NCBI RefSeq assembly: GCF_014279655.1
Contig: NZ_CP047946.1
Span: forward strand, 2,728,001 to 2,792,000
DNA length: 64,000 nucleotides
Reading direction: 5' to 3'
From: Synechococcus sp. ROS8604
GTDB lineage: Bacteria > Cyanobacteriota > Cyanobacteriia > PCC-6307 > Cyanobiaceae
A program made the position numbers and the translations under genes. Under the pieces are notes generated by a model that saw only the letters and a program-made list of their open reading frames with translations, did no database searches and had not been told where the DNA came from. How positions within the stretch are numbered: the stretch's first letter is position 1; each line of letters starts with the position of its first letter. Positions 11,453 through 54,986 of this stretch are shown here, in pieces.

Positions 11453-13228
11453 ATGGCCACCTCCAGCTTGAAGCCATCAGTGACTGCATCCAGCACCAGT
11501 CCGAGGCTCACCCTGCAATCGGAAGTGATTGCTGCTGACAGCAGCACGATTCGTTCCCTCGACTGGGAGCGAAGTCGTTTTGATATTGAATTTGGCCTGC
11601 GCAACGGCACCACCTACAACGCGTTTCTGGTGCGGGGTGAACGCACCGCCCTGATTGATACGAGTCACGCCAAATTTCGCGACACCTGGTTGCCGCTCTT
11701 AAAGGAGCAAATCGATCCCAAACAGATCGATTACCTGATCGTGAGCCATACCGAACCAGACCACTCAGGGCTGATTGGCGACCTGATTGACCTAAACCCT
11801 GAGATCGAAATTGTTGGATCGAAGGTGGCGATTCAATTCCTAAACGACCAGGTCCATCGTCCGTTCCGCTCTCGAGCCGTCAAAAGCGGAGAAGAGCTCG
11901 ATCTCGGCATCAATCCTGAGAGCGGCGTGCAGCATCGCTTTGAGTTTTTAAGCGCACCCAACCTGCACTGGCCAGACACGATTTTTTCGTTTGATCACGG
12001 CAGTGGGATTCTCTACACCTGCGATGCCTTTGGGCTGCACTACTGCTCAGAAGAGGTCTTTGACAGCGACCCTGGCGCCATTGCACCGGATTTCCGCTTC
12101 TACTACGACTGCTTGATGGGGCCCAATGCCCGCAGCGTGCTTCAAGCCCTCAAGCGTATGGATGGGCTGCCCGAGATCAACACGATCGCAGTGGGTCATG
12201 GCCCTTTGCTTCGCCACCACCTCAGCCACTGGATCAACGATTACCGCGAATGGAGCGGGCAACGCAATAAGGGCGAAAGTTACGCAGCGGTCTGTTATTT
12301 GAGCCAATACGGCTTCTCTGATCGCCTAAGTCAGGCGATTGCCCACGGCATCGGCAAAACCGACGCCCAGGTTCAGCTGATCGACCTGCGCGCCACCGAC
12401 GCCCAAGAGCTCACAGCCCTGATCAGTGACGCCAAAGCTGTGGTGGTTCCCACCTGGCCAGCAAGCCCTGATGCTGAACTACAAAGCAGCATCGGCACGT
12501 TGTTGGCTGCCTTGCATGGCAAACAGCTCGTGGGGGTCTACGACGCCTTTGGTGGAGATGATGAGCCGATCGATTCGGTGGCCGGACAGCTCCGCAGCCA
12601 GGGACAAAAAGAGGCCTTTTCCCCCCTCCGCATTCGCCAGCTTCCTCAAGGTGGCGACTACCAGCGCTGCGAAGAATCAGGCACCGACCTGGGCCAACTC
12701 TTAACGCGCGACAAAACGATCGCAGCCATGAAAAGTCTGGACGGCGATCTCGACAAAGCGCTTGGCCGTCTCAGCGGTGGGCTTTATGTGGTTACTGCCA
12801 GCCAGGGCGATGGCGACAGCCTGCGCCGTAGCGCGATGGTGGCGAGCTGGGTCAGTCAGGCCAGTTTCACGCCACCAGGCATCACCGTGGCCGTGGCCAA
12901 GGACAGGGCCATCGAGGCTCTGATGCAGGTTGGCGACCAATTTGTGCTGAATATTCTCCGAGAGGACAACCATCAACAACTTCTCAGACATTTTCTTAAA
13001 CGCTTCCCACCGGGCGCCGACCGTTTCGCAGGCATCAATGTGCTGGAGGAGGAGGCCGAAGGCGGTCCCGTCCTCGGAGACGCACTGGCCTACCTCGGCT
13101 GTCGCGTAGAACAACGCATGGAAGGCCCCGATCACTGGGTGATCTATGCCGTGGTGGAACAGGGGAATGTCGCTGACGCCAATGCCATCACTGCCGTCCA
13201 TCACCGCAAAGTCGGGAACCACTACTAA
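11453..13228 (+). CDS. flv3: Flavodiiron protein with complete diiron ligands (Flv3 type)
   Basis: A 591-residue class C flavodiiron protein. In cyanobacteria the Flv1/Flv3 pair passes electrons from photosystem I to O2, making water. Three domains in order are metallo-beta-lactamase-like (about 25-265), flavodoxin-like (about 275-420) and NAD(P)H:flavin-reductase-like (about 435-590). All canonical diiron ligands are visible: H99, E101, D103, H104 (HTEPDH), H172, D191 and H249. This makes it the Flv3-type subunit. The stop and the next start share one base (TAATG at 13226-13230), so it is co-translated with flv1. The first gene begins 37 bases after the TRAP operon. Confidence 0.93.
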   Translation: MATSSLKPSVTASSTSPRLTLQSEVIAADSSTIRSLDWERSRFDIEFGLRNGTTYNAFLVRGERTALIDTSHAKFRDTWLPLLKEQIDPKQIDYLIVSHTEPDHSGLIGDLIDLNPEIEIVGSKVAIQFLNDQVHRPFRSRAVKSGEELDLGINPESGVQHRFEFLSAPNLHWPDTIFSFDHGSGILYTCDAFGLHYCSEEVFDSDPGAIAPDFRFYYDCLMGPNARSVLQALKRMDGLPEINTIAVGHGPLLRHHLSHWINDYREWSGQRNKGESYAAVCYLSQYGFSDRLSQAIAHGIGKTDAQVQLIDLRATDAQELTALISDAKAVVVPTWPASPDAELQSSIGTLLAALHGKQLVGVYDAFGGDDEPIDSVAGQLRSQGQKEAFSPLRIRQLPQGGDYQRCEESGTDLGQLLTRDKTIAAMKSLDGDLDKALGRLSGGLYVVTASQGDGDSLRRSAMVASWVSQASFTPPGITVAVAKDRAIEALMQVGDQFVLNILREDNHQQLLRHFLKRFPPGADRFAGINVLEEEAEGGPVLGDALAYLGCRVEQRMEGPDHWVIYAVVEQGNVADANAITAVHHRKVGNHY

Positions 13229-15057
13229 TGGCAACATCGAACCTCGAGGCCCCTGCAGCAACGACGCGGCAAGTGATCAGCCTGCCCATCGATGACGGAC
13301 TCACTTGCCTGCGGGGGCTGAGTCCTCAACGGCTCCGATTCGAATTGGAATATGCGCTGGAGCGGGGCAGCACCGCCAATAGCTTTTTGTTTGATGCCGG
13401 CACGGATGGCGAGGGCCAGCATCAGACCGCACTCCTGGTGCATCCTCCCGGCAAGGCCTATGACAAGGCCTTCCTCCCGGCTCTTGCCGGCCTGCTTCCC
13501 GCCGAAACCACCGCACTCAAGGTGGTGGTTGGCCACGTCAATCCCAACAGGGTGGCGCTGCTCCGCGATCTGGCAGGCCTCTACCCCGAGCTCGAACTGG
13601 TTGCCTCCAACGCTGGAGCCAAGCTCCTAGGAGAACTCTGGTCACAACGCAAACCTGCACCCCCGGGACAGGAGAGCGAACAGCCAGAGATCCCTGACCT
13701 GCCATCCATCCAGGTGATCCGCCAAGAGCAAACCCTCTCTCTCAGCCATCGGCACCAGCTTCAACTCGTTCCCGCTCCCACCCCCCGATGGCCAGGGGGT
13801 CTGCTGGCGTTTGAAGAATCCCTCGGACTTCTGATGAGCGGCAAGCTGTTTTCGGCGCACATCTGCACCCATGAATGGGCTGAGTCCGGACGCAGTGCAA
13901 CGGAAGAAGAGCGGCGTCACTTTTATGACTGCCTCATGGCACCGATGGCAGGCCAAGTGGACTCGCTTGTGGAGCGCCTTGAAGAGCTGGATATCACCAC
14001 AGTGGCGCCGGGTCACGGTCCAGCCATCGACACCAGCTGGCGCAGTTTGTTCAATGACTACAGGCGCTGGGGCGAAAGCCAACAGCAAGCCAGCTTGTCG
14101 GTGGCCCTGCTGTTTGCCAGTGCTTACGGAAACACGGCTGCCATTGCTGATGCTTTAGCTCAGGGTGTTGGCCGCACTGGGATTCGCATCACCAGCCTCA
14201 ACTGTGAGTTCACACCTCCCGACGAACTCATCAACACGATCAACCAAGCAGACGGCATTTTGATCGGCTCACCAACGCTCGGCGGCCATGCGCCAACCCC
14301 GATCGTCTCCGCCTTAGGGACACTTCTTGCCGAGGGGGACCGCAGTAAGCCCGTGGGCGTTTTTGGCAGCTTTGGCTGGAGCGGTGAAGCCATCGACCTG
14401 CTGGAGAACAAGCTTCGTGACGGCGGATTTCACTTTGCATTCGACCCCATCCGGGTGAAGTTCAGCCCCGACGCAGCGATGATTCGAACCCTCGAAGAAA
14501 CCGGCACCCGGTTCGGTCGCGAGTTGCATCGAGAGCAACGCAAACAGCAGCGACGTAGCGGCGGCGGGCTCAGTGAAAGCCGCAGTGATCCTGCCGTTCT
14601 TGCCCTCGGTCGGGTCGTGGGATCCCTCTGCGTTCTCACCGCGCGCAAGGGTGAACTCTCCGGCGCCATGATTGCGAGCTGGGTCACCCAAGCCAGTTTC
14701 ACGCCACCGGGATTCACCGTGGCCGTTGCGAAAGATCGAGCCGTTGAAGCCCTCCTGCATATCGGCGATTGCTTTGCCTTAAACGTGCTCGCCGAAGGGC
14801 GCGAGAGCGGGCCCATGAAGCAATTCCTGCAACCATTTGAGCCTGGAGCGGATCGCTTTGCCGGCCTGGAATTGAAAGCCAGTCCACGGGAACAGCCCTT
14901 GCTGCCAGATGCCTTGGCCTGGATGGAAGCAACGGTGAAACAACGCATGGAATGCGGCGATCACTGGCTGATTTACGCCGAGGTCTCCCATGGAGGCGTG
15001 CTCGATTCCGAAGGCGGCACGGCGGTGCATCAGCGGCGCAGCGGCGCGAACTACTAA
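13228..15057 (+). CDS. flv1: Flavodiiron protein with substituted diiron ligands (Flv1 type)
   Basis: A 609-residue paralog of the preceding protein with the same three domains. Its beta-lactamase domain has lost most iron ligands: the HxExDH motif reads H103-V-N-P-N-R, R187 and K206 replace the later His and Asp, and the GHGP histidine remains. Such substitution is typical of cyanobacterial Flv1, which works as a heteromer with Flv3. The flavodoxin domain has a classic ASAYGNTAAIADAL phosphate loop, and the flavin-reductase domain is intact (SWVTQASFTPPGFTVAVAKDR). It is coupled to flv3 by a one-base overlap. Confidence 0.92.
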   Translation: MATSNLEAPAATTRQVISLPIDDGLTCLRGLSPQRLRFELEYALERGSTANSFLFDAGTDGEGQHQTALLVHPPGKAYDKAFLPALAGLLPAETTALKVVVGHVNPNRVALLRDLAGLYPELELVASNAGAKLLGELWSQRKPAPPGQESEQPEIPDLPSIQVIRQEQTLSLSHRHQLQLVPAPTPRWPGGLLAFEESLGLLMSGKLFSAHICTHEWAESGRSATEEERRHFYDCLMAPMAGQVDSLVERLEELDITTVAPGHGPAIDTSWRSLFNDYRRWGESQQQASLSVALLFASAYGNTAAIADALAQGVGRTGIRITSLNCEFTPPDELINTINQADGILIGSPTLGGHAPTPIVSALGTLLAEGDRSKPVGVFGSFGWSGEAIDLLENKLRDGGFHFAFDPIRVKFSPDAAMIRTLEETGTRFGRELHREQRKQQRRSGGGLSESRSDPAVLALGRVVGSLCVLTARKGELSGAMIASWVTQASFTPPGFTVAVAKDRAVEALLHIGDCFALNVLAEGRESGPMKQFLQPFEPGADRFAGLELKASPREQPLLPDALAWMEATVKQRMECGDHWLIYAEVSHGGVLDSEGGTAVHQRRSGANY

Positions 15058-15088
15058 CGGACTCCGCGAAGCAAGCGCATTGACCCCG

Positions 15089-15121
15089 AGCGCTAACTCA
15101 TAGTGAGTATGAGTTAGCGCT
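15089..15121. promoter_or_regulatory. Perfect 13-bp-arm palindrome between flv1 and rubrerythrin gene
   Basis: AGCGCTAACTCAT (15089-15101) and its exact reverse complement (15109-15121) flank the seven-base spacer AGTGAGT. The right arm ends 27 bases before the rubrerythrin ATG. There is no T-tract, so it is a poor Rho-independent terminator. A -10-like TAGTAT starts at its right edge. It could be an operator or an mRNA stem. It does not match the usual PerR/Fur consensus. Confidence 0.7.
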
Positions 15122-15148
15122 AGTATCAAATGATCGGCTCATCAATCT

Positions 15149-15862
15149 ATGGATCTTTCCAAGCCTTCCACCCAGGCCAACATCGAAGCGGCCTTTGGCG
15201 GCGAAAGCATGGCCAATCGCAAGTACCTGTTTTTTGCCGATGTCGCCAAGAAACTCGGCCGCAGCGATCTCGCCAAACTTTTCCGCGACACCGCCGCCCA
15301 AGAAACAGAGCACGCCTTTGCTCACTTCCGGCTGCTCCATCCAGAGCTCGTAGTCAGCGACCCCAGTGCGCTCAGCGACGACGACAAACAGGTCTTGCTC
15401 AGCCGCTGCCTAGAGCTTGCCATCGAAGGCGAAACCTACGAATACACCACGATGTATCCGGAGTTTGCTGCGCAAGCCCGCAACGATCGTGATCACGGAG
15501 CTGAAGCTGAGTTCAAGGAACAGACCAGCGAATCCAAAGAACACGCAGGCATCTTCAAAACAGCGGCCAAAAACTTCGGACTGCTCACACCCATCGAACA
15601 GCACCATGCCGAGTCCTATGGCGTTGCCCTCCAAGCCCTTCAAGGCAAGGGCCAAGCAGGACAGGCCGATGAGGCGGTAGCCGGCAAATGGATCTGCAAG
15701 GTCTGCTCGATGATTTACGACCCAGCAGAGGGTGATCCCGACTCCGGAATCGAGCCCGGAACCCCCTTCGAAGCGATTCCAGATGATTGGTCTTGCCCCA
15801 TCTGCGGTGTTCGCAAAGCCAGCTTCGTGCCCTATCGAGAAGCGGAATTAAAGGCCGCCTGA
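15149..15862 (+). CDS. rbr: Rubrerythrin (diiron peroxidase with C-terminal rubredoxin domain)
   Basis: A 237-residue NADH-linked hydrogen peroxide reductase. The ferritin-like four-helix domain (about 8-165) carries the diiron ligands in QETEH (E52, H55), in EGETYEY (about E94) and in the helix with E131-H132. The rubredoxin domain has C183, C186, C216 and C219 in CKVC and CPICG. The start is the ATG at 15149; no strong SD is visible. Position directly after flv1, behind a large palindrome, suggests joint or stress-responsive control. The oxygen/peroxide theme of the cluster supports the assignment. Confidence 0.94.
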
Positions 15863-16046
15863 AGTTCGCCACAGGCGTGCAGATCATCCAGCACTGCAAT
15901 CACTCAAGGTCAAGGTCCGTCAACGTGCATTCCACTCGCGGCGGAACCTGCGGCCTTACCAATAACGGATAGCTCTGCGACGGCAGCCATGCCCTGAAAG
16001 CAGAGATATCAGCCAAAATTCAGCGTGCATGGTGGAAATTCTGGGC

Positions 16047-16571
16047 ATGAACAAAACAAACACAAGCGATGTGTTGGTGATCACAGCAAGCAACGGCGAA
16101 AACCTCAAGCTGGCCCAGCGCTTTGTTGAGACGGCGGGAAACCTAGGCCAATCGGCAGAGCTACTCGATCTCACAACCATCGACCTGCCCTTATTCACCC
16201 CCAGAGCTCAAACGCAAGGCACACCGGAGGCGATCGCCCCCCTCGAAGCCCAACTCATGGCCTCCCCTCGCTGGGTGATCTGTGCACCCGAATACAACGG
16301 CTCGATTCCGCCCTGCCTCACCAATGCGATTGCCTGGCTATCTGTGCAAGGCGACGACTTTCGGGCGCTCTTCAACAGCCGGCCAATCGTCATCGCCACC
16401 TTCTCCGGAGGCGGGGGCATGGAACTCCTTCTATCTCTTCGCATCCAGCTCACCCATCTCGGGGCCGAAGTGGTGGGTCGTCAACTGCTCAGCAATCACG
16501 CCAAACCAGCCAAGGACGACACCATTCAGGACTTACTGCATCGCCTAGGACAAAAACAGGCCCTCCAATGA
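16047..16571 (+). CDS. NAD(P)H-dependent FMN reductase
   Basis: A 174-residue flavodoxin-fold reductase of the FMN_red family that supplies or uses reduced FMN. Signatures are the N-terminal VLVITASNGENLKLAQRF phosphate loop and APEYNGSIPPCLTNAIAWLS, which binds the flavin ring, followed by TFSGGGGMELL. The start at 16047 is favoured; an in-frame ATG lies at 16029. Its stop overlaps the pirin ATG (ATGA at 16568), so the two form a pair. Physiological substrate unknown. Confidence 0.88.
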   Translation: MNKTNTSDVLVITASNGENLKLAQRFVETAGNLGQSAELLDLTTIDLPLFTPRAQTQGTPEAIAPLEAQLMASPRWVICAPEYNGSIPPCLTNAIAWLSVQGDDFRALFNSRPIVIATFSGGGGMELLLSLRIQLTHLGAEVVGRQLLSNHAKPAKDDTIQDLLHRLGQKQALQ

Positions 16572-17311
16572 CGCCTCCCTCCCACACCTGCCATCCATCG
16601 CTTGTCTTTCGTCCAGCACAAGAGCGCTTCCATAGCTCCAACAACTGGCTGGAGTCATGGCATAGCTTTTCGTTCGCGGGTCATCACGATCCCAACTGGA
16701 TGGGCTTCGGGCCTCTACGCGTCATCAATGACGACACGATTGCAGCAGGCCGGGGGTTTGGCATGCATTCCCATCACGACATGGAGATCATCACCGTGAT
16801 GATCGAAGGAGAACTGCAACACCAGGATTCGGAAGGACACAGTCGTGTGATTCAGGCTGGCGATGTGCAGCGCATGAGCGCTGGAACCGGAATCATGCAC
16901 AGCGAAAGGAACGAAAGCGAACAAACCTGCAGGCTGCTGCAGATCTGGATCGAACCCAGCCGCCTAGCACTCGAGCCTGCCTACGAGCAACGCAGGATGG
17001 CCCTTGCCGATCAGGGTTGGACTTCAGTGCTGGATCCAGACAGCAACGAAGCCATGGCGATCGCGCGACCTGTCCAGCTTTGGCGAACGAAGCTTGCAAA
17101 AAACGAAAGCCTTTCGTTACCGCAACTCGCCTTCTCAAAGGCCTGGATTCAAATGATCAACGGCGAGATCTCGATCTCAAGCGAAACCAGCGCATCCCAA
17201 GCAGATCTTCGCCGAGGCGACGGGCTTGGATTTCATCCAAGCCAAGCAAAGATGAACCAAATCCATTCCTTGAGCGATCAAACCGACTTGCTCCTGTTTG
17301 GATTGGACTGA
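16568..17311 (+). CDS. Pirin-family cupin protein (YhhW-like)
   Basis: A 247-residue bicupin of the pirin family; bacterial members such as YhhW have quercetinase activity. The metal ligands are intact: H67 and H69 in MHSHHDMEI, and H111 and E113 in GTGIMHSERN. The N-terminal WLESWHSFSFAGHHDP and GFGPLRVINDD stretches are family hallmarks. It is coupled to the FMN reductase gene. In vivo function is not established; with the neighbours a stress-related role is inferred. Confidence 0.92.
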   Translation: MTPPSHTCHPSLVFRPAQERFHSSNNWLESWHSFSFAGHHDPNWMGFGPLRVINDDTIAAGRGFGMHSHHDMEIITVMIEGELQHQDSEGHSRVIQAGDVQRMSAGTGIMHSERNESEQTCRLLQIWIEPSRLALEPAYEQRRMALADQGWTSVLDPDSNEAMAIARPVQLWRTKLAKNESLSLPQLAFSKAWIQMINGEISISSETSASQADLRRGDGLGFHPSQAKMNQIHSLSDQTDLLLFGLD

Positions 17312-17539
17312 ACGCACCAACAACATCGGTACACCAAGCCTGAACTTTTTGTTGTATCAAATGCCATTAAAACCGCTCAAATCACAACTTCGACTAGCCA
17401 AATATCCAACAGAATCCTCAAAAACAATCAAACACTGACAAACAGAAAAGCAAAACCTAAAGAAAATCAGTTGTTAGCACTTAAATTTATTTTTTAGCCT
17501 TGAAATAGTTTCAATCAACGTGAACTAACCCCAGCCCCC

Positions 17540-17746
17540 ATGGGATTTCTTGGCGAACCACAATTCGCAGTGCGTTACCGCGGATTCATTCTTTTGCAAC
17601 AGCCAAATCAAAGTTGGCTCGTTCGGCCAGAACGCAGCCCGATGCAATTGCTTCCCTTCAGGACAGCCATCTGTTCGATTGACGATGCAAAATCATTAGT
17701 GGATTGGAAACTCGAAGCCAATCCAAATTTCATCGAAGTTGCCTAG
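17540..17746 (+). CDS. Small conserved-looking hypothetical protein (68 aa)
   Basis: A 68-residue soluble protein with well-balanced coding composition, for example the stretches RYRGFILLQQPNQSWLVRPE and MQLLPFRTAICSIDDA. I recall similar short proteins in marine picocyanobacteria, but no function. It follows a 228-base AT-rich gap (17312-17539) that probably holds its promoter. Confidence 0.75.
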   Translation: MGFLGEPQFAVRYRGFILLQQPNQSWLVRPERSPMQLLPFRTAICSIDDAKSLVDWKLEANPNFIEVA

Positions 17747-54587: not shown

Positions 54588-54986
54588 ATGAAGACCCAGC
54601 CGTCCGCAAGCCGAAATCGACAACAACGCCTGCTCGAAGCCTTGCGTAGCTCTGGCGACGAAATGAGTGGGCAACAGCTTCATCGTCTCTTAGAGAACGG
54701 GGCTAGCGCCATGGGACTCGCCACGGTGTACAGGAACCTCAGGCAACTGCAGCAACAGGGTCTTGTGCGCTGCCGGCATTTACCCACCGGGGAGGCCCTT
54801 TATGCCCCGATTGAACAGGACCGTCATCACCTCACCTGCGTGGACTGTGGAAGGACCCAAACATTGGATCGTTGCCCGATTCACGGACTCTCCATCTCAA
54901 CCGAAGAACAGTCTGGCTTCAAAATGTTGTTCCACACCTTGGAATTCTTCGGCATTTGCTCTGAGTGCCAACACAATCAGCCTTAA
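54588..54986 (+). CDS. Fur-family metal regulator (Zur-like)
   Basis: A 132-residue repressor. The winged-helix part (about 10-75) has GLATVYRNLRQLQQQGLV, the family DNA-recognition stretch. The structural zinc site is C84, C87, C124 and C127, and His residues in HHLTCVDC and LFHTLEFF provide the regulatory site. The short N-terminus and the absence of a PerR-like Asp/His pattern make Zur more likely than PerR, but this is inference. No Zur-box was identified by eye. Confidence 0.88.
   Translation: MKTQPSASRNRQQRLLEALRSSGDEMSGQQLHRLLENGASAMGLATVYRNLRQLQQQGLVRCRHLPTGEALYAPIEQDRHHLTCVDCGRTQTLDRCPIHGLSISTEEQSGFKMLFHTLEFFGICSECQHNQP

Follow-up and report, generated by a model that had tools for sequence, protein, structure and literature searches.

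The window analysed here, a stretch of 64 kb, carries a pair of flavodiiron protein genes followed by a rubrerythrin gene. The flv3-type gene (11453-13228, + strand) is the first of the pair, the flv1-type gene (13228-15057, +) comes next, and rbr (15149-15862, +) encodes a rubrerythrin of 237 aa with a C-terminal rubredoxin domain. Downstream of rbr lie genes for an FMN reductase and a pirin (16029-17311, +) with a 4-nt overlap, which could form part of one redox unit with rbr. Direct reading of the window reveals a perfect inverted repeat between flv1 and rbr, AGCGCTAACTCATA-GTGAG-TATGAGTTAGCGCT, at 15089-15121, with exact arms of 14 nt (15089-15102 and 15108-15121, not assigned to a strand) around a 5-nt loop. 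Its first base is separated by 31 bases from the flv1 stop (15057) and its last base by 27 bases from the ATG of rbr (15149), the presumed controlled gene. An earlier note on this DNA, which described arms of 13 bp around a 7-base spacer, had seen the same object one pair shorter, and the 27 bases to the ATG that it gave, as well as a TAGTAT at the repeat edge, agree with our coordinates. This TAGTAT (15121-15126, +), likewise read directly, is a -10-like hexamer that begins at the edge of the repeat, and transcription of rbr would be expected to start near 15133. No sigma-70 consensus promoter was called at the repeat.

Among the 16 short-range inverted repeats of at least 12 bases in the window, the one upstream of rbr is alone in being perfect, the remaining 15 being imperfect overlapping palindromes. 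Simple arithmetic, done without a tool, gives an expectation of about 0.002 perfect repeats of such a kind in 64 kb. A search of the 2.88-Mb genome with a single arm, allowing up to 2 mismatches, returned 11 matches, two of which were the repeat itself, compared to 19 for the reversed control. The repeat thus occurs as a single copy, and a mobile or genome-wide repeat was rejected on this ground. The perfection of the palindrome is a strain-specific feature: among seven close relatives (L010-L016), only L016 is perfect too, one to three pairs being mismatched in the remaining six, with the inner dyad kept. Such strain-specific perfection is all that would speak for a chance or mobile repeat, a reading to which we give almost no credence in view of the single genomic copy and of a position that is kept across many related genomes.

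What recurs in other genomes is the inner part of the repeat, a 21-bp dyad, AACTCATAGTGAGTATGAGTT, at 15095-15115 (likewise without strand). We collected rbr loci from 31 genomes of the genus, 21 of them with a full-length rbr, and from 80 named contigs, the two sets overlapping in part. The upstream regions were surveyed row by row without L001 and L002, which are copies of L009, and without L043, whose contig starts inside rbr. A dyad with the consensus (CT)AACTCATACTCACTCCGACTT(AG) was found upstream of the gene with at most five substitutions in 82 of 100 rows, and with at most three in 66. Its start lies 43-137 nt ahead of the ATG in these 66 rows, and in 58 of them within the narrower range of 53-66 nt. 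Many of the rbr loci also have -10-like hexamers after the dyad, as judged by eye. Arm conservation in relatives, which the earlier note had set as a test, therefore held, and its proposal was not refuted.

From 52 non-redundant rbr sites an alignment of 46 rows was built, with six poorer or displaced matches (L045, L049, L051, L057, L059 and L060) excluded by hand, so that the profile is somewhat sharper than the full set of sites; the bases C5, A8 and G17 of the dyad are invariant in these rows. The matrix derived from them has its top match in the window at the dyad (28.5 on the + strand, 32.5 on the - strand). Of the 79 testable loci among the 80 contigs, 65 had a match scoring at least 8 in the 200 nt that precede rbr, compared to four such matches elsewhere in 616 kb, many of the counted rbr sites having themselves trained the matrix. 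No match of at least 8 was present upstream of rbr in the other 14 testable loci (L069, L079, L085, L086, L091, L095, L096, L098, L099, L101, L105, L108, L112 and L115), L043 being untestable since its contig begins in the gene, and the dyad was also absent upstream of rbr in the genus loci L026-L029. The earlier note had assigned the site to the flv-rbr cluster, which does not agree with its distribution: the site follows rbr and does not need flv1, as it is kept in five loci (L050, L052, L054, L063 and L070) where the 4 kb upstream has no flv1 match. Moreover, the scan of the window gave no strong match just before flv3, the other top matches being 11.5 at 17709 and 9.2 at 11572, within the flv3 gene.

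Several variants and oddities were observed along the way. The upstream region of rbr in L018 / L137 (genome G020) has 19-bp arms, CGAACCCTAACTCATACTC GTTAT GAGTATGAGTTAGGGTTCG, which amount to four half-sites. L095 has a variant array, TAATCCGTATCCGTTACGGGTATGGATTA, with the half-site ATCCGT, which lies below detection by the profile and may be a diverged PerR box; ends resembling this variant, ATGGATTA, occur in L093, L100 and L110. Picocyanobacterium-like rbr sequence was furthermore found in records titled Gammaproteobacteria (L043) and Bifidobacterium breve (L074), which are probably mixed or mislabelled bins.

A perfect repeat in an intergenic region could also act as RNA, either as a 3'-end stem of the flv mRNA, as the earlier note had suggested, or as a leader structure of rbr. 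In the strain studied here the stem is indeed perfect and folds better than shuffled sequences (z -2.54, 3 of 200 shuffles equal). A functional RNA stem should however show covarying pairs, and across the 46 rows base pairing was found in 72.4% of cells compared to 72.8% in shuffled columns, which leads us to reject the stem. Of the ten pairs examined, pair 4-26 is broken in half of the rows, and three others (7-23, 10-20, 11-19) are broken in the majority. RNAalifold found no consensus structure for the alignment, no terminator was called at the repeat, which has neither the compensatory pairing nor the T-tract of an intrinsic terminator, and a search of Rfam with positions 13000-17500 gave no match up to E = 1. 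A motif lying upstream of the -10-like element would, in addition, be absent from the rbr mRNA. We consider an RNA hairpin very unlikely for these reasons.

The arms instead vary between two interchangeable half-site spellings, ACTCAT and AGTCGG/AGTCGT, the kind of variation predicted for a site read by a protein dimer. In the window, direct reading together with the alignment of rbr sites gives a Fur-like array of three half-sites, ordered 6-6-1-6, at 15096-15114 (+): ACTCAT (15096-15101), AGTGAG (15102-15107), a single T (15108) and ATGAGT (15109-15114). On the - strand the array reads ACTCAT-ACTCAC-T-ATGAGT. Fur sites have been proposed to be arrays of hexamers (PMC3293774).

The rbr profile was compared with published operators. 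In Anabaena sp. PCC 7120, the consensus of FurC (PerR) is given as CAAAATCATAACGACTTTG, and FurC is described as binding the promoters of ntrC, prxA and srxA among others (PMC10406281). The Anabaena ntrC box is CGAACTCATAACGACTACG, 11 nt before the ATG; this promoter is bound by FurC, and its expression was unchanged on overexpression of furC (PMC10406281). The FurC consensus scored 18.9 against the rbr profile and the Anabaena ntrC box 23.7, with 0 of 5000 shuffles as good in either case. The 19-bp stretch that aligns with the FurC box lies at 15099-15117 (+; offset 6 of the 25-column profile), and an additional ACTCAT half-site to the left of this stretch completes the 6-6-1-6 array. Other boxes matched poorly, with 2.7 for the Zur box (256 of 5000 shuffles as good), 5.8 for the RexT motif (400 of 5000), and 3.7 each for the Bacillus subtilis Per and Fur boxes (21 and 95 of 5000, respectively), the last two scored with TTATAAT/TGATAAT half-sites and still somewhat better than their own shuffles. 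The statement in the earlier note that the repeat has no match to known PerR/Fur boxes thus stands for the AT-rich B. subtilis-type boxes and fails for the Anabaena FurC consensus. In the literature we found no published PerR box or rubrerythrin operator from picocyanobacteria; a database prediction, for example in RegPrecise, may exist. The site would accordingly be a predicted FurC/PerR box in a clade for which we found no published one, of a kind already known from Anabaena.

Further copies of the dyad were sought in the 31 genomes of the genus, with a pattern taken from the rbr sites and then with a profile built from rbr sites only (R1). The pattern search is weak on its own, giving 93 matches compared to 51 for the reversed control, with both strands counted and each palindrome hence counted as 2. 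With R1, a dyad was found upstream of leuA in the genome studied here (22.2 bits, E 3.7e-4), its box ending 21 nt before the ATG. This dyad, AACTCATAGTCATTCCGACTA at L149:5767-5787 (G000:C1:1064766-1064786), varies little across most of the genus, and the 21-mer, identical or with one change, was matched by the pattern in 23 of 31 genomes, the gene being read as leuA in G000 and G001. Such a leucine gene is not an obvious peroxide gene. A second box lies 4 nt before the ATG of ntrC, the gene for NTRC (a thioredoxin reductase that also carries a thioredoxin domain), with 12.6 bits and E 0.41 (matrix score 18.3) in the genome studied here and up to 18.1 bits in other genomes.

A box was also present before a 2-Cys-type peroxiredoxin gene in all seven genomes read (G002, G003, G004, G005, G008, G009 and G022), the family having been checked for one of them (AhpC/TSA peroxiredoxin), and before a second peroxiredoxin gene in G003 and G019. 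The labels "2-Cys" and "1-Cys" for the two proteins are ours, given from sequence features, the domain searches giving AhpC/TSA peroxiredoxin. A box before sulfiredoxin was found in one of the genomes read, G002, where the ORF of 90 aa has sulfiredoxin as its best PDB match (E 9.8e-23) and falls into none of the Pfam or NCBIfam families at E <= 0.001 (ParB_N at E 0.02). In the genome studied here, no box was found before a 2-Cys-type peroxiredoxin gene. Hence, of the peroxide-defence targets known for FurC, ntrC stands behind the box in this genome, and the peroxiredoxins and sulfiredoxin only in parts of the genus. NTRC and sulfiredoxin serve the 2-Cys peroxiredoxin and rubrerythrin is itself a peroxidase, so that these genes form one pathway, into which leuA does not fit. 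Another candidate target, purU (G002/G011/G022), was rejected, as the box in G002 lies at the start of the sulfiredoxin ORF, and in G011 (L154, 2459 onward) a box is present with no ORF of at least 75 aa beginning behind it. Matches at 868069 of the genome studied here (E 0.86) and in L189, L194 and L195 look like chance.

This genome encodes three Fur-family proteins (109, 72 and 66 bits), the best-scoring of which is Fur-like. The second, L230, is the candidate PerR; its gene lies outside the window (G000:C1:1795775-1796239, - strand), and it matches PF01475 with 72.0 bits (cut-off 23.1). The third is encoded in the window at 54588-54986 (+), with 66.7 bits to PF01475 and no NCBIfam family above cut-off, and its size and two CxxC motifs suggest a Zur-like protein. 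The L230 protein aligns with B. subtilis PerR (2fe3) at E 1.5e-10 and keeps His37, His91, His93 and Asp104, with Gln for Asn61 and Gly for Asp85; it is without the Cys4 zinc site, and C136/C139 are absent. In 68 homologous rows (including one identical pair), the three His, Asp104 and the Gln at position 61 are found in 68/68, position 85 is Gly in 66 and Ser in 2, and the position of C99 is Ser or Thr throughout. Fur rows have Glu at 104, and Arg occupies position 61 in six Fur rows and in the Zur-like row. Asp104 has been described as setting PerR apart from Fur, and residue 61 as deciding the choice of box in B. subtilis (PMC8638851). In a tree of 75 rows, which has its one Zur-like row on a very long branch and does not include the Anabaena FurC sequence, the PerR type groups with 28 homologues that belong to other families in its class, apart from the Fur rows and the Zur-like row, on a branch with support of 100/99. 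A core with no more than 2 mismatches is present in the promoter of perR itself in 5 of 10 genomes of the genus and in 4 of 27 from the further family, cores with 3 mismatches arising by chance; this makes a weak case for predicted autoregulation. The perR promoter of the genome studied here (L230, G000) is without a convincing box and has in its place GATGCGATCAATAAAATTGCATTAG, which contains a different, imperfect dyad.

Joint inheritance of dyad and regulator was assessed in 81 genomes of the family, with the PerR type called at E <= 1e-15; it was found in 37 genomes, the remainder being PerR-negative in the sense of not found, with some assemblies incomplete. R1 matches at E <= 0.05 occurred in 29 genomes, 29/29 with PerR, and at E <= 0.1 in 34, of which 30 have PerR and four, with weak matches (E 0.054-0.097), do not; both cuts are given since the stricter one was picked after the table was known. 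Eight PerR-positive genomes had no R1 match at E <= 0.05. The gene rbr is present in 25/81 genomes, 25/25 of them PerR-positive. The upstream regions of leuA (found in 71/81 genomes) and ntrC (66/81) were then scanned with the matrix built from rbr sites only (cut-off 8), the ntrC regions beginning at the blast match and thus including some N-terminal codons. The dyad was found at leuA in 31 of 37 PerR-positive compared to 1 of 34 PerR-negative genomes (Fisher 7e-13), and at ntrC in 23 of 32 compared to 0 of 34 (8e-11), P values that are nominal and overstate the case because the PerR-negative genomes are AT-rich and probably represent few independent losses. Shuffled PerR-positive upstream regions passed the cut in 1 of 1850 cases for leuA and 2 of 1600 for ntrC. 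Six leuA and nine ntrC promoters of PerR-positive genomes are without the dyad, and the one PerR-negative genome with a leuA box (G032) has an assembly that is 85% complete. The 14 PerR-negative genomes with completeness of at least 95 have two Fur-family proteins in 13 cases and three in G055, none of the PerR type at E <= 1e-15; near-complete PerR-negative genomes thus keep other Fur-family proteins, which makes those proteins unlikely readers of the dyad.

Co-inheritance as such cannot name the protein, and the small PerR-negative genomes have lost many genes. Another dimeric regulator, lost alongside PerR by coincidence, could therefore own the operator, and the perR promoter without a box in the genome studied here would fit such a case. 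Opposed to this are the fit of the dyad to the FurC box, which was derived from bound promoters, the targets ntrC, prx and srx shared with those given for Anabaena FurC (PMC10406281), the presence of a box at perR in some members of the genus, the other Fur-family proteins kept in PerR-negative genomes, and the poor match of the RexT, Zur and Fur boxes. We judge a different regulator improbable. The earlier note had suggested that the repeat could be the operator of an oxygen/peroxide regulator, with a -10-like element at its edge, and this is supported by a dyad that is conserved in relatives and fits the FurC (PerR) box; the regulator it called unknown now has a strong candidate in the FurC-type PerR, on the basis of co-inheritance.

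The sequences directly show a dyad that is conserved, recurs at other genes, resembles the FurC box and is inherited jointly with PerR. Beyond this, we propose with high confidence that the repeat is a predicted operator for PerR/FurC, adjacent to the rbr -10 element on its upstream side, through which rbr would most likely be repressed as long as peroxide has not inactivated PerR. PerR loaded with metal would occupy the 21-bp dyad as one dimer, or as two over overlapping half-sites. The dyad lies between flv1 and TAGTAT, with its centre about 28 bp ahead of the predicted start of rbr transcription. Bound PerR would keep RNA polymerase off and rbr repressed. Once peroxide had inactivated PerR, rubrerythrin would be produced along with NTRC, joined in some strains by peroxiredoxins and sulfiredoxin. 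We are more confident of what the operator is than of the sign of regulation; we infer binding, sign, inducer and transcription start from the DNA.

The same operator and the same PerR could also work in the opposite direction, with bound PerR activating rbr and peroxide lowering its expression. The boxes at leuA, ntrC and some perR genes of the genus lie just downstream of a -10-like hexamer and over the expected start (by eye), which would be the position of a repressor. At rbr the box lies directly upstream of a -10-like element, likewise placed by eye, with its centre near -28 and over the -35 region, a difference that would favour activation. The Anabaena rbrA box is also upstream of its -10, and this gene is grouped with targets that FurC is suggested to activate (PMC10406281). 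A centre near -28, with -10 and start both predicted, would however span the -35 region and spacer, which is unusual for an activator, and switching off rbr under peroxide makes little sense for an enzyme that removes it. Activation is a possibility that we take seriously and consider unlikely, and repression by PerR remains our preferred reading.

Read as a PerR operator, an anonymous palindrome becomes part of a testable picocyanobacterial PerR regulon with rbr, NTRC, peroxiredoxins, sulfiredoxin and, unexpectedly, leuA. Picocyanobacteria are among the most abundant photosynthetic organisms. The loss of the dyad at leuA and ntrC in genomes without a PerR match resembles the break-up of a peroxide regulon in the course of genome reduction, which would bear on the poor peroxide tolerance of Prochlorococcus. 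A specificity rule can also be offered, in which Gln at position 61 goes with ASTCRT half-sites. More tentatively, and with rather less than even confidence, this may represent a third DNA code of the Fur family, in which ASTCRT is paired with Gln at the residue that sets specificity, where Fur has Arg and classical PerR has Asn, and in which two dimers would bind the 6-6-1-6 array at rbr, ntrC and leuA, peroxide would be sensed unlike in B. subtilis PerR (without Cys4 and Asp85), leucine synthesis would be tied to redox state, and operators would have decayed at retained genes after the loss of PerR.

Compared with known systems, the operator is closest to the Anabaena FurC box, with which it shares the sequence of the 19-bp core, the dyad form and the targets ntrC, prx and srx, as well as a box upstream of the -10 element at rbr(A) and one just before the ATG at ntrC. 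It differs in the extra ACTCAT half-site of the picocyanobacterial rbr, leuA and ntrC sites, in leuA being among the targets, and in the perfect palindrome of the window's copy. The candidate protein belongs to the same Fur family (PF01475) as B. subtilis PerR and has the same His37/His91/His93/Asp104, whereas it has no Asn61, no Asp85, no Cys4 site, and Ser or Thr in place of the second Cys of the first CxxC. The B. subtilis Per box and the Fur 7-1-7 box likewise have the dyad geometry of the Fur family, with TTATAAT/TGATAAT half-sites in contrast to the ASTCRT seen here. RexT, with the motif ATTCG-N15-CGAAT, and PedR, with RWWTRGGYNNYY (PMC13421787), similarly exert redox control over thioredoxin-linked genes, but their motifs differ, for PedR as judged by the published motif alone. 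Finally, Zur of the related strain Synechococcus WH8102 is a Fur-family regulator with a described box (PMC9337993), but that box matches poorly, and the PerR-negative genomes without the motif retain other Fur-family proteins.
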